From: Halolamina sediminis
Lineage (GTDB): Archaea > Halobacteriota > Halobacteria > Halobacteriales > Haloferacaceae
Direction: 5' to 3'
DNA: 64,000 bases
Assembly (NCBI RefSeq): GCF_001282785.1
Contig: NZ_CVUA01000001.1
Span: forward strand, 2,356,001-2,420,000
The notes under the pieces are model-generated. The model made no database searches. It was not told the DNA's origin and was given only the letters and a program-made list of their open reading frames with translations. Both the position numbers and the translations under genes were made by a program. This document shows, piece by piece, positions 3,259 through 62,665 of this stretch. The first letter of the stretch is position 1. Each line of letters opens with the position of its first letter.

Positions 3259-3436
3259 CTTGATCGGGGGGTTGGTCGTTGTGGGTTAGGAACTACCGGA
3301 TGCCGGCGAAACGGTGGGGTTTCGGGGTCGTGAGTGTTCGATCGGAGTTGTGTTCGGGAGTTCGTCGGTATTGTCGACAGCTCTCGCGACCGCGACAGCA
3401 CCTCTATCGTTGGCAACTGGAACAGCGACGACAACC

Positions 3437-3733
3437 GCAACAGCATCTCGACGCGAGACCACTTGTGACCGCAGTGCGCCGGACACACGGTCCGGCGCAG
3501 CGCCGAGTCCCCACCCCTCCCCCCGCCGGCGCCACCGTGGCGCCGGCGAGGCGTCCACCGCCACCGCACCGCGGTCACTGTCGGCGCGAAGCGTTCGCGG
3601 CTCTGTCCGCGAGCCAGCGCGAGGGACGACTGAGTGAACGCAGTGAACGAAGGAGTCAGCTGGGGAGGTCTGTGGACTGTGCGGGGCGGCGCGGTACAAG
3701 TGGCCTAGCAACGAGCTGCTGTTGCTGTCGCGG
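3437..3733. repeat. Dispersed intergenic element, copy 1
   Basis: This fills most of the gene-free stretch 3259-3812. The left end (about 3437-3472) contains CAGCATCTCG...GACCACTTGTGACCGC. The right end (about 3691-3733) is its near inverted copy, ACAAGTGG...CGAGCTGCTGTTGCTGTCGCGG. Inside are three structured parts. One is the hairpin GCGCCGGAC/GTCCGGCGC, followed by a C-rich strip. The second is a perfect 11-pair hairpin, GCCGGCGCCAC/GTGGCGCCGGC. The third is the conserved strip CTGTGGACTGTGCGGGGCGG. The sequence left of it (about 3350-3437) holds degenerate repeats of the end motif. The same layout occurs at 31.8, 37.2 and 62.3 kb. No coding potential is supported. Confidence 0.85.
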
Positions 3734-3812
3734 TCGCAGTGCTCGACGATCGAAAACGCCCCAACGGCGAGCATAACGCCACTCAAGCAAACCGAACCAC
3801 TCCCCAAACGAG

Positions 3813-31736: not shown

Positions 31737-31905
31737 GGGTTAGTGGTGCCCAGGCACCCTATTTCGGAGGCAACATCTCGGTCGTTGGTAACTGAGACAG
31801 CACCCGCGACAGCAACAGCATCTCGATGCTAGACCACTTGTGACTGCAGGGTGCCGGGCACGAGGCCCGGCACAGTCCCGAGTCCCCACCCCTCCCCCCG
31901 CGAGC

Positions 31906-31962
31906 GTCGACGAGAATCGAAGATTCTCGGCTGCCAACCAGAACGCTTCGCGTTCTGGTGAC
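31906..31962. mobile_element. Double-hairpin module inside element copy 2
   Basis: 57 bases: GTCGA-CGAGAATC-GAA-GATTCTCG, centre GCTGCCAA, CCAGAACGC-TTC-GCGTTCTGG, end TGAC. Both stems are perfect with 3-base loops. Confidence 0.85.
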
Positions 31963-32034
31963 GCCGACCGTTGGCGCTCGCGAGGCGTCCACCACCACCG
32001 CACCGCGGTCGCTGTCGGCGCGCGACGTGAGCAG

Positions 32035-32090
32035 GGCGAGACCTTCGGTCTCGCTGGCAGTGCGGGCGACGCGTGGGTCGCCCGCACGAC
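32035..32090. mobile_element. Second, more divergent double-hairpin module in copy 2
   Basis: Stem GGCGAGACC-TTC-GGTCTCGC(T), centre TGGCAG, then stem TGCGGGCGAC/GTCGCCCGCA around GCGTGG, ending CGAC. It has the same plan as the other modules but a longer second loop. The other element copies have a different single hairpin at this spot. Confidence 0.6.
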
Positions 32091-32360
32091 GCCTCCGTGG
32101 GCGAACGAGCGCGCGAGGTCCTCGCGAGTGAACCGAGCGAGGGCACGAGAGAGCTTGCTCTCTCGGAGGACGAGCGAACGGACGTGAGCGACCGAGTCGG
32201 CTGGGGAGAGCTGTGGGCTGTGCGGGGCGGTGCGGTCACAAGTTGCCCTGCTCACTCCGCGGTGACGTTCGCGATTGTAGTCGTCGACGACACCCGGAAA
32301 CAGCAACCTCTCCTCTCACCTATTCGCCAAACCCGTCCGCTCGCGGTTCACTCCGCTCAC

Positions 32361-37170: not shown

Positions 37171-37400
37171 GCGTGAAGGTGTGGTTGCGGTGGAAGCGTC
37201 GCCGCCAACGCGCGAGCGAGTGAAACGAGCGAGCGCCGGCGGCGACGGGGAGGTGCGGGGACTCGGCACTGCGCCGTAGACGAGAGCCTCCGGCTCTCGT
37301 TTGCCAATCAGAAATCTCCGATTTCTGATGACGGACCTCGTGTCCGGCGCACCGCGGTTACAAGTGGTCGACGAACGAGATGCTGTCGCGGTTGCCGTCT
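37171..37400. repeat. Dispersed intergenic element, copy 3 (truncated, opposite orientation)
   Basis: The gene-free stretch 37065-37529 holds a copy in reverse orientation. On the minus strand it reads CGCGACAGCATCTCG..GACCACTTGTAACCGCGG, then GTGCGCCGGACACGAGGTCC. This is interrupted by the module at 37276-37332 and resumes GGCGCAGTGCCGAGTCCCC. A GTCGCCGCC/GGCGGCGAC stem and CTTCCACCGCAACCAC follow. The right half of the element is missing. Beyond 37400, degenerate repeats of ACTGAGAC..CGACAGC-type sequence continue toward uvrC. Confidence 0.8.
37276..37332. mobile_element. Double-hairpin module cleanly inserted in element copy 3
   Basis: 57 bases: GTAGACGAGAGCC-TCC-GGCTCTCGT, centre TTGCCAA, TCAGAAATC-TCC-GATTTCTGA, end TGAC. 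It splits the element hairpin between GGTCC and GGCGC (minus strand). Copy 1 has GGTCCGGCGC uninterrupted, so the empty site is known and no target duplication is seen. Confidence 0.88.
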
Positions 37401-37529
37401 CAGTAGGCAAAATCGTGGTGTTGTCGGGGTCTCAGTAGCCAACGATCGAGGCGCTGTTGCAGTCGCGATCCTGTACACCGACGGCCGAGGGCGTCACGCT
37501 CAAACGCGCCGACACCCTACCCCGGATAG

Positions 37530-39377
37530 ATGGACGCGAGCGAGGTCCGAGCGCGCGCCGGCGACCTCCCTCGGGAGCCGGGCGTCTACCAGTTCCTCGA
37601 ACGCGGCGACGACGCCGACACGGTTCTCTACGTCGGCAAGGCCGTCGACATCCGCGACCGCGTGCGCTCCTACGCGGACCACCGAGGCGGCGAAGCCGCC
37701 TCGAGCCGCGCGAACGGCGAAGCCGTGAGCGGACCGCGGAGCGACCGCATCCGGAAGATGGTCGGGCGCGCCGACGCGATCGACACCGCGGTCACGGACA
37801 CCGAGACCCAGGCCCTCCTACTGGAGGCGAACCTGATCAAGCGCCACCAGCCGCGGTACAACGTCCGGCTGAAGGACGACAAGTCCTACCCGCTGGTCCA
37901 GCTCACCAACCACGAGTACCCCCGAATCGAGATCACCCGCGACCCCGACGACGCAGCGACCGTTTTCGGTCCCTACACCCGGAAGGACGAGGTCGAGACG
38001 GTCGTGAAGGCGATCCGGGAGACGTACGGGCTGCGGGGCTGTTCGGACCACAAGTTCCGCAACCGCGACCGGCCCTGCCTCGACCACGAGATGGGGCTCT
38101 GCTCGGCGCCCTGCGTCGACGCGATCGGCGCGGAAAGCTACGCGGAGGACGTGTCGAGCGCGATCCGCTTCTTCGAGGGCGAAACCGGGATCCTCGCCGA
38201 CCCGCTGCGGCGGGAGATGGAGCAGGCCGCCCAAGCGGAGGAGTTCGAGCGTGCCGCCAACGCCCGGGATCGCCTCGAAACGGTCGAGGCGTTCCACGGC
38301 GAGGGCGGCGAGGCGGTCTCCTCGCCCGGAAGCCGTCGGGAACTCGACGTGCTCGCGGCGGTCGTCGAGGGCGGCGACGCGACTGTCGCGCGGCTCCACG
38401 CCGACGCCGGCCAGCTCGTCGACCGCTCGCGACACCGCCTCGACGCGCCCGAGGGCGAGGACCGCGTCGCGAGCCTGCTGTCGGCGTTCCTGACGCAGTA
38501 CTACGCCGAACGGGAACTGCCCGACGCGATCCTGCTCTCCGAGCGGCCGGACGACGAGGACGTGCTCGGCTGGCTCGAGAGCGCGGGCGTCGACGTGTCG
38601 GTGCCCGGCGCGGGCCGTGAGGGGAAGCTCGTCGAGTTGGCGCTCAAGAACGCCCGCAGCGGCGTCGGCGGCGCGGACGACCCCGTGGGCGCGCTCGGGC
38701 AGGCGCTCGACATTCCCCGCCCGGAGCGCATCGAGGGGTTCGACGTGAGCCACGCCCAGGGGAAGGCGGTCGTCGGCAGCGACGTGTGTTTCGTCGACGG
38801 CAGCGCCGAGAACTCCGACTACCGCCGGAAGAAGCTGCCCGAACGCAACGACGACTACGCCAACATGCGCGAACTGGTGCGCTGGCGGGCCGAACGCGCC
38901 GTCGACGGGCGGGACGACCGGCCCGACCCGGACCTGCTGCTGATCGACGGCGGCGAGGGACAGTTGGGCGCCGCGATGGACGCGCTCGACGAGGTGGGCT
39001 GGGAGGTGCCCTGTATCGCGCTGGCGAAGTCAGAGGAGTTGGTGGTCACGCCCGACGGCGTCGCCGAGCGAAGCTCGGCTGCCAGTCAGGCGTCGCCTGA
39101 CAACGTCGAGCGGTTCGACGACGACGCGTCCCACCTCCACCTGCTCCAGCGCGTCCGCGACGAGGCCCACCGCTTCGCGGTCCAGTACCACCAGAGCGTG
39201 CGCGACGAGGTGGCGACGGCGCTCGACGAAGTCGAGGGCGTCGGCCCCGAGACGCGCAGACGGCTGCTCCGCCGGTTCGGCTCGATCGACGCGATCCGCG
39301 ATGCCGGCGAGCCGGCGCTTCTGGACGTGGAGGGCGTCGGGCCGACGACCGCCGAGCGGATCGACCGGCGGCTGTAA
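37530..39377 (+). CDS. uvrC: Excinuclease ABC subunit C, with two palindrome-encoded inserts
   Basis: A 615-residue nucleotide-excision-repair nuclease. The GIY-YIG domain is at about 10-100 ([29 protein letters not shown]), followed by [23 protein letters not shown] (shown as key parts), [21 protein letters not shown] with the Cys cluster, and a UVR motif near 230-260. The RNase H-like nuclease half has [18 protein letters not shown] and [15 protein letters not shown]-terminal helix-hairpin-helix pair follows. Two segments absent from usual UvrC are [18 protein letters not shown] (about residues 50-67) and [14 protein letters not shown] (511-524). Both are encoded by paired hairpins. The frame stays open, so the protein is probably functional. 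Confidence 0.95.
37681..37734. mobile_element. Probable double-hairpin insert in uvrC (first)
   Basis: GAGGCGGC-GAA-GCCGCCTC, an 11-base spacer, then ACGGC-GAA-GCCGT. It adds about 18 codons between SYAD and PRSDRI, which adjoin in typical UvrC. The centre differs from the GGCTGCCAA consensus, so membership in the module family is less certain than for 39060. Confidence 0.55.
39060..39101. mobile_element. Double-hairpin module in frame in uvrC (second)
   Basis: 42 bases, exactly 14 codons and aligned to the codon frame: GTCG-CCGAGC-GAA-GCTCGG, centre CTGCCA, GTCAGGC-GTC-GCCTGAC. It encodes [14 protein letters not shown]. The ends and centre match the other modules. Confidence 0.8.
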
Positions 39378-58228: not shown

Positions 58229-58400
58229 CGTCGGCCGCGAGCGAACGAAGTGAGCGAGCGGGCCGAGGAGGCCCCGAACGGGGCCGACGACGGCTTTTGT
58301 CGCCAGAAATCTCCGATTTCTGGCTGCTAACCAGAAGCCGGAGGCTTCTGGTGATGGCCGAGCTTTTGCAAGGGCCCTCCGGGGCCCGCAGCAAAAGGTC
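58229..58400. repeat. Hairpin-rich block holding a double-hairpin module
   Basis: GTCGTCGGCC...GGCCGACGAC forms a long outer stem around GAGCGAACGAAGTGAGCGAGCG. The module at 58299-58355 follows, then GGGCCC-TCC-GGGGCCC-type arms. It separates the propeller lipoprotein gene from deoC (convergent) and may also end transcription. Confidence 0.7.
58299..58355. mobile_element. Double-hairpin module between propeller gene and deoC
   Basis: 57 bases: GTCG-CCAGAAATC-TCC-GATTTCTGG, centre CTGCTAA, CCAGAAGCC-GGA-GGCTTCTGG, end TGAT. Both stems are perfect. The GAAATC arm is shared with the modules at 37276 and 62407. Confidence 0.85.
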
Positions 58401-62239: not shown

Positions 62240-62665
62240 ACTGAAACGGCGACAGCGACAGTAGCTCGATCTTCGGGAACTGCAACAGCAACCGCGACAG
62301 TAACAGCAGCTCGATCGTTGGCAACTTGCGACCGCAGTGCGCCGGGCCTCGTGCCCGGCGCAGCAGCGAGTCCCCACCCCTTTCCCCGCGGCCGGCGACG
62401 ATCACCGTCATCAGAAATCGGAGATTTCTGATTGGCAGACGAGAGCTTTGCTCTCGTCGACGGCCGCGAGGCGTCCACCGCGACCGCACCGCGGTCGCTG
62501 TCGGCGCGAAGCAGGAGCGCCCCTTGTGGGCGCGACCGGCGCGAGGGACGACCGACTGAACGTAGTGAAGGAGGGAGTCGGCTGGGGAGGTCTGTGGGCT
62601 GTGCGGGGCGGTGCGGTCACAAGTGGTCGACGAACGAGCTGCTGTTGCTGTCGCGGTCGTCGACC
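62240..62665. repeat. Dispersed intergenic element, copy 4 (most complete)
   Basis: This fills most of 62191-62757. The left part carries two to three degenerate repeats (GACAACTGAAACGGCGACAG..., CTGCAACAGCAACCGCGACAG...). The hairpin GCGCCGGGC/GCCCGGCGC follows, then the C-rich strip. A GCGGCCG/CGGCCGC stem holds the module at 62407-62461. After it come GAGGCGTCCACCGCGACC.., a small GCGCCC/GGGCGC hairpin, CTGTGGGCTGTGCGGGGCGG and the right end ACAAGTGGTCGACGAACGAGCTGCTGTTGCTGTCGCGG. No gene is visible; 62666-62757 holds nothing else recognised. Confidence 0.85.
62407..62461. mobile_element. Double-hairpin module inside element copy 4
   Basis: 55 bases: GTCATCAGAAATC-GGA-GATTTCTGA, centre TTGGCAG, ACGAGAGC-TTT-GCTCTCGT, end CGAC. 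Its first 31 bases equal those of the 37276-37332 module read on the minus strand, while the second loop differs. Confidence 0.88.

Follow-up and report, generated by a model that had tools for sequence, protein, structure and literature searches.

Introduction

The closest known counterparts of the sequence studied here are the CGTC-tagged REP sequences of bacteria, which include dRS3 of Neisseria and RPE-4 and RPE-6 of Rickettsia (Di Nocera et al. 2013, PMC3733652). According to the accessible text of that paper, these repeats have a stem of 8-9 bp, a loop of 4-5, A-T as their first two pairs and a 3-base tail that mostly reads CCA, and head-to-head dimers predominate. In the same text, the mover of CGTC-type palindromic repeats is stated as open and the word archaea occurs in the reference list only. 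Rickettsia palindromic elements (RPE), about 150 bases long (accessible part of PMC10969869), interrupt many conserved protein genes while keeping the frame.

In haloarchaea, two kinds of non-coding elements are described in the accessible part of PMC3119063. The SMR-A, small mobile repeats of Haloquadratum, are about 110 bases long, with prominent inverted terminal repeats and commonly more than 95% identity within a type, and they attack the palindromes of IS605-type elements without target duplication. The PATEs carry near-terminal palindromes related to IS605, and they include terminal-only forms of 52 bases. A further group consists of the GTAG-tagged REP/REPIN doublets associated with RAYT genes, which are thought to need an enzyme in trans. 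For Archaea, only the IS200-type subclass 1.1 is reported in the accessible part of PMC6006769. No report of palindromic doublets inside haloarchaeal genes, or of haloarchaeal REP-like elements, was found in the literature searched by titles and abstract openings, a search that left subscription papers mostly outside.

Results

A 57-base module in a hairpin of a repeated element

The window, i.e. the whole stretch of 64,000 nucleotides that was analysed, is part of the 2.84 Mb single-contig genome of Halolamina sediminis. An earlier note on this DNA had proposed that a 57-base insert splits a hairpin in one of four copies of a repeated element. The relevant features of the window are the following.

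37271-37275, forward strand: GCGCC, left arm of the interrupted host hairpin (sequence, own-genome copies, ortholog alignment)
37276-37332, forward strand: 57-base module with two hairpins, GTAG...TGAC, in the 5' arm of the element hairpin (sequence; covariance model R1, 82.8 bits; ortholog alignment)
37280-37300, forward strand: hairpin 1 of the module, ACGAGAGCC TCC GGCTCTCGT (sequence, alignment of copies)
37301-37306, forward strand: TTGCCA spacer separating the two hairpins (sequence, alignment of copies)
37307-37329, forward strand: hairpin 2 of the module, ATCAGAAATC TCC GATTTCTGAT, then GAC, which with the next G is CGTC on the opposite strand (sequence, alignment of copies)
37333-37350, forward strand: GGACCTCGTGTCCGGCGC, remainder of the interrupted host hairpin (sequence, own-genome copies, ortholog alignment)
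31906-31962, forward strand: 57-base sister module, in the other hairpin of element copy 2 (model search of own genome)
62407-62461, reverse strand: 55-base sister module, in the other hairpin of element copy 4 (model search of own genome)
58299-58355, forward strand: divergent sister module that starts GTCGCCAGAAATC, with left flank ctttt (model search of own genome)

The sequence itself, the empty copies of the same genome and the ortholog of a sister species all bear out the split GCGCC^GGACCTCGTGTCCGGCGC. The joined hairpin was likewise recovered in copy 1 (from 3386) and copy 4 (from 62249). That these two copies are uninterrupted holds for this hairpin; copies 2 and 4 contain modules in a different hairpin of the element.

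The host element lies at 3386-3740, 31761-32236, 37183-37471 and 62249-62659 of the window, and is composed of several covarying hairpins and units of 37-39 bases of the CAAGTGG type. Elsewhere in the genome, at 2699821-2700161, about 8 copies of these units follow one another in tandem next to the element. The divergent module at 58299-58355 shares its right flank, its ctttt left flank and its GTCGCCAGAAATC start with two other loci (L109 and L110); these modules are perhaps a separate subfamily or a piece of another element.

Filled and empty copies of the site

The own genome was searched for the right half of the host hairpin, whose insertion site is hereafter called site A, with the reversed pattern as a control. 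The right half was found at 49 places and the reversed pattern at none. Nine of the 49 places were unreadable; among the 40 readable copies, 33 were empty (31 by the rule of the script and 2 copies with mutated arms judged by eye) and 7 were filled. Since empty sites are the rule, precise loss of the module, which the earlier note had left as a possibility beside insertion, is unlikely.

A plain 57-base insertion was present in three of the seven filled copies, namely the window copy and those at 697448 and 521572 of the genome. Three others contained compound inserts of several whole hairpins. The last one, at 308427, combined a left flank from another hairpin with the right flank of the site A hairpin. 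This module (L096, 308427-308484), flanked on the left by one element hairpin and on the right by another, looks as if two modules had recombined with deletion of the stretch between them. In two compound inserts (L006 at 2354419 and L007 at 2765413), an extra hairpin pair lies between the two hairpins of a module, i.e. modules are nested in modules.

In the 40 readable copies, no insert was sized between zero and one whole module. The earlier note had stated that partial or graded inserts would argue for slow growth of a hairpin; none was seen. That a structured RNA arm grows or shrinks in place, by slow hairpin growth or template switching, is suggested by hairpin tips that vary as paired blocks and by the three compound inserts. 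This explanation is nevertheless highly improbable: site A has nothing or whole modules, the 57-base unit is found in unrelated genes with exact empty orthologs, and no Rfam family reaches threshold at the locus. A discrete insertion is supported instead, because site A is all-or-whole, because the inserts in dapA and aroE measure exactly 57 bases and because abutting copies have a period of 57 (see below).

The orthologous locus in sister species

The genes that flank the window module, including uvrC, were present in all six other species of the genus examined. In one of them (G003), the element occupies the orthologous place upstream of uvrC (80 bases at 95%) and is devoid of the module; in the other five, the element was not matched at that place. 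When the window was aligned at single-base resolution with the G003 ortholog and two empty copies of the own genome, the gap spanned exactly 57 columns. As G003 has the element without the module at the same place, the element probably arrived first and the module afterwards.

Inside uvrC, at 37680-37733 of the window, a different palindromic doublet of 54 bases is found in frame. This doublet is also present in another species (G005), with its loop inverted relative to the own genome, and absent from five other species, which suggests that in-frame hairpin inserts belong to more than one family.

Structure and ends of the module family

The alignment of 24 copies gave two hairpins of the form CGTY-ACGAGA..TCTCGT-(spacer)-CAGAA..TTCTG-RKGACG, with standard pairs in 97.3% of 473 cells. 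Both-side changes, mostly at inner stem pairs, were counted in 40 cells against a shuffled mean of 10.2, the structure being drawn from the same alignment on which it was tested. Within this alignment, the two hairpins are shown to be maintained by compensatory changes. The stem has nine pairs plus a closing C-G, so that the loop is 3 or 5 depending on the definition. The first stem pair is standard in 17 of 23 cases, and the second is T-A in 17 of 23 and C-G in 6 of 23. The commonest spacer gives the tail TGG(C). All 24 aligned copies are head-to-head pairs, a figure to be read with the fact that the search model itself selects for pairs.

A set of 268 copies was then studied (50 from the own genome, 60 from the genus, 78 from other genera and 80 from named genomes), with shared ancestry uncorrected. 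The unit measures 45-59 bases in 266 of them, mostly 55-57: 57 bases in 142, 55 in 68 and 56 in 35. The left end consists of GT followed by variable bases and, with the preceding C, mostly reads CGTT, less often CGTC. At the right end, most copies have TGAC or GGAC and then a G; TGACG, GGACG or CGACG, i.e. CGTC on the opposite strand, was found in 235 of 268. The ends GTAG...TGAC given by the earlier note are therefore true of this copy and represent a single instance, the GTAG start (AG at bases 3-4) occurring in at most 5 of 268.

These figures bear on two known systems. Like the SMR-A of the accessible part of PMC3119063, which target palindromes of other mobile elements without duplication, the module sits in element hairpins. 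Its short and diverse units, often placed in genes, set it apart from the described SMR-A, with their length of about 110 bases, terminal inverted repeats and high identity, and make it improbable that the module is one of them. The REP/REPIN doublets resemble the module in being palindromic pairs, but the module is as a rule without their GTAG tag.

Insertion site and target duplication

The base at -1 is C in 247 of 268 copies and that at -3 is G in 200 of 268, so that the site is mostly GNC^G. Where two copies abut, they have the boundary base in common and a period of 57 (731364/731421 in G005; 138252/138309 on contig C4 of G003), and three modules in a row with periods of 57-58 were observed in another genome (G045, contig C49). 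Because the ends read C|GT...GAC|G, an insert of 57 bases that duplicates nothing and one of 55 bases that duplicates CG give the identical string. The absence of target duplication claimed in the earlier note thus fits the data without being established.

In the own genus, the folding of joined flanks exceeds that of the null (z -1.15 vs -0.15), and elsewhere it does so only weakly (p 0.046); pairs across the joined-flank junction were not raised in the own genus (p 0.999) or elsewhere (p 0.95). By these two tests, a general preference for palindromic targets was discarded as unsupported outside the own genus.

In-frame copies in conserved genes

A strict coding test was applied (at least 15 codons on each side, at least 150 residues, codon-position GC bias), which 24 of the 268 copies passed. 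In 22 of these 24, the module is in sense orientation and phase 0; the chance of at least 22 of 24 falling in one frame of four is 9e-12. The two others (L180 and L054) are antisense and lie outside the set checked with Pfam. All 24 have a length that is a multiple of three, vs 132 of the remaining 244, a contrast that the test itself favours since a frame-shifted gene would fail it. Three further candidates (L197, L061, L087), whose length is not a multiple of three, were judged spurious: the start lies 0-7 codons from the module and they fail the stricter test.

The modules in genes are 45, 51 or 57 bases long and add 15-19 residues; the inserted peptides resemble VDESRRLSSANQNASRSGD. Pfam was searched with 20 proteins (19 of 29 coding candidates, and DapF), and each of the 20 matched a family above cut-off: GHMP kinase, glycosyl hydrolase 3, aldehyde dehydrogenase, DNA polymerase D large subunit, sodium-solute symporter, shikimate dehydrogenase, three S9 peptidases, DUF58, arginine deiminase family, FtsJ methyltransferase with TRAM, two glyoxalases, DUF2797, NIF3, ABC transporter, MFS, diaminopimelate epimerase and one TnpB. 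In the latter (L143, TNB domain match, outside the 24 passing copies), the module is antisense.

Empty orthologs were available for dapA and aroE. The insert in dapA is exactly 57 bases when compared with five empty sisters, and G003 carries a module at the same codon (L219). In aroE, the module was found in G003 only, where it is again exactly 57 bases, all six sisters being empty. A solved DapA from another organism has a 19-residue gap at the place of the insert, and a solved DNA polymerase D large subunit is also gapped at its insert. For dapF, which carries a 51-base module (L115) outside the 24 passing copies, no exact empty site could be drawn because the length of the region varies between species. 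DapA and DapF each gave one match in the own genome, so the copy that bears the module appears to be the sole copy in each case.

Association with tnpB and candidate movers

Of the 158 modules from outside the genus set, 17 are inside tnpB-like genes and a further 34 are no more than 500 bases away from one, vs 9% of random positions in named loci. In the own genome, one module of 50 is inside tnpB and none is near; in the genus, none of 60 is inside and one is near. Together with the two hairpins near the ends and the lack of a clear duplication, the association outside the genus set speaks for a remnant of an IS200/IS605 or IS1341 element that was trimmed to its termini and is moved by a resident TnpA, like the 52-base terminal-only PATEs of Haloquadratum described in the accessible part of PMC3119063. 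However, the modules near tnpB occur in either orientation, chiefly 5' of it, and their distance from it varies; this has the look of insertion into those elements rather than of their ends. Modules also occur in genomes without a Y1 transposase, and almost none is near tnpB in the own genus. We consider such a remnant unlikely on balance.

At five loci (L127, L128, L129, L136, L157), an antisense module occupies seemingly the same C-terminal place in TnpB proteins of different haloarchaeal genera, a set that includes plasmids of DL31, Halocatena and Halorientalis. As the place looks the same across genera, part of the spread is probably due to hitch-hiking.

A search of nine module-carrying genomes for Y1_Tnp, the sole family searched, revealed no linked transposase gene. 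In the own genome, the Y1_Tnp matches come down to two damaged genes in three pieces, and two of the nine genomes (G018 and G056) carry modules and have no Y1_Tnp at E 1e-5. An IS200-type TnpA is a possible, if doubtful, candidate for the mover.

Distribution

The covariance model gave 99 matches in the own genome, collapsed to 50 places, and detected modules in all seven genomes of the genus. They were also detected in 22 of 24 selected genomes of other genera; 19 of these 24 had a prior DNA-search match, so that they are not a random sample. With stricter filters, 19 of 148 genomes drawn from the phylum matched, all labelled own, same family or same order. A degenerate pattern run over 84,980 species genomes gave at least 118 stretches, and among the matches listed (80) all were haloarchaeal by title. 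Eleven of 72,556 plasmid records matched, all haloarchaeal. Phage records gave no match to the module and viral contigs none to its degenerate pattern; among viral contigs with a TnpB, a scan revealed one relative. In the Rfam search, only tRNAs reached the gathering score in the window, the module locus having sub-threshold chance matches only. Judged from its sequences, the family is a dispersed non-coding unit of haloarchaea, located in intergenic elements, in or beside tnpB, and in frame inside conserved genes.

Discussion

The 57 bases are very probably a copy of a haloarchaeal palindromic doublet that is non-coding and mobile. The module behaves as a real, discrete unit, and its apparent mobility is deduced from filled and empty sites. 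The unit consists of two facing hairpins with the tags outside (CGTY-hairpin-TGCCA-hairpin-GACG), and was inserted in one piece between C and G, most often at GNC^G, with either no duplication or a 2-base CG duplication; orthologous sites with and without it agree base by base. Because of the two hairpins, the outside tags and this absence or shortness of the duplication, an enzyme that recognises hairpins may copy the module in trans; its substrate would most simply be single-stranded DNA, as for the IS200/IS605 and REP transposases. Insertions in genes would survive only if the frame is kept and a hydrophilic loop is added, and since only such frame-keeping inserts would survive, the phase pattern may reflect mainly selection after insertion.

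On sequence grounds, a haloarchaeal variant of the CGTC-REP and RPE type is the best description of the module. With the CGTC-REP it has in common short CGTC-tagged hairpins and copies inside other palindromes and inside genes. The copies aligned here are head-to-head dimers with the tags outside, the form that predominates in the CGTC-REP; these have no linked transposase gene, and the Y1_Tnp search revealed none for the module. It differs from them by its archaeal host, a left tag that is mostly CGTT, a TGG(C) tail in place of CCA, a fixed short spacer and a tie to tnpB outside the own genus. Like the RPE, it sits in frame within many conserved protein genes, but its intragenic copies are shorter and nearly always in the same phase and sense. 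With SMR-A and PATEs it shares a haloarchaeal host, a non-coding nature, insertion with no clear target duplication and nesting in the palindromes of other elements; the in-frame gene inserts seen here are undescribed in the accessible part of PMC3119063.

A broader reading, which we hold in even balance, is that of a haloarchaeal counterpart of the RPE. The hairpin pair would be at once a mobile DNA unit and a ready-made frame of 15-19 codons, seeding loop peptides class-wide into core enzymes such as DapA, AroE, the DNA polymerase D large subunit and an FtsJ-type methyltransferase; its mover would be something other than a RAYT, and perhaps other than a Y1 transposase.

Haloferax volcanii is a tractable laboratory haloarchaeal host. 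Haloarchaeal filled and empty sites defined at base resolution, with about 50 places in this genome, make the question of the mover testable. In addition, the in-frame copies show such decoration of genes outside bacteria and, in apparently single-copy biosynthetic genes, they form a natural record of loops that tolerate an added peptide.
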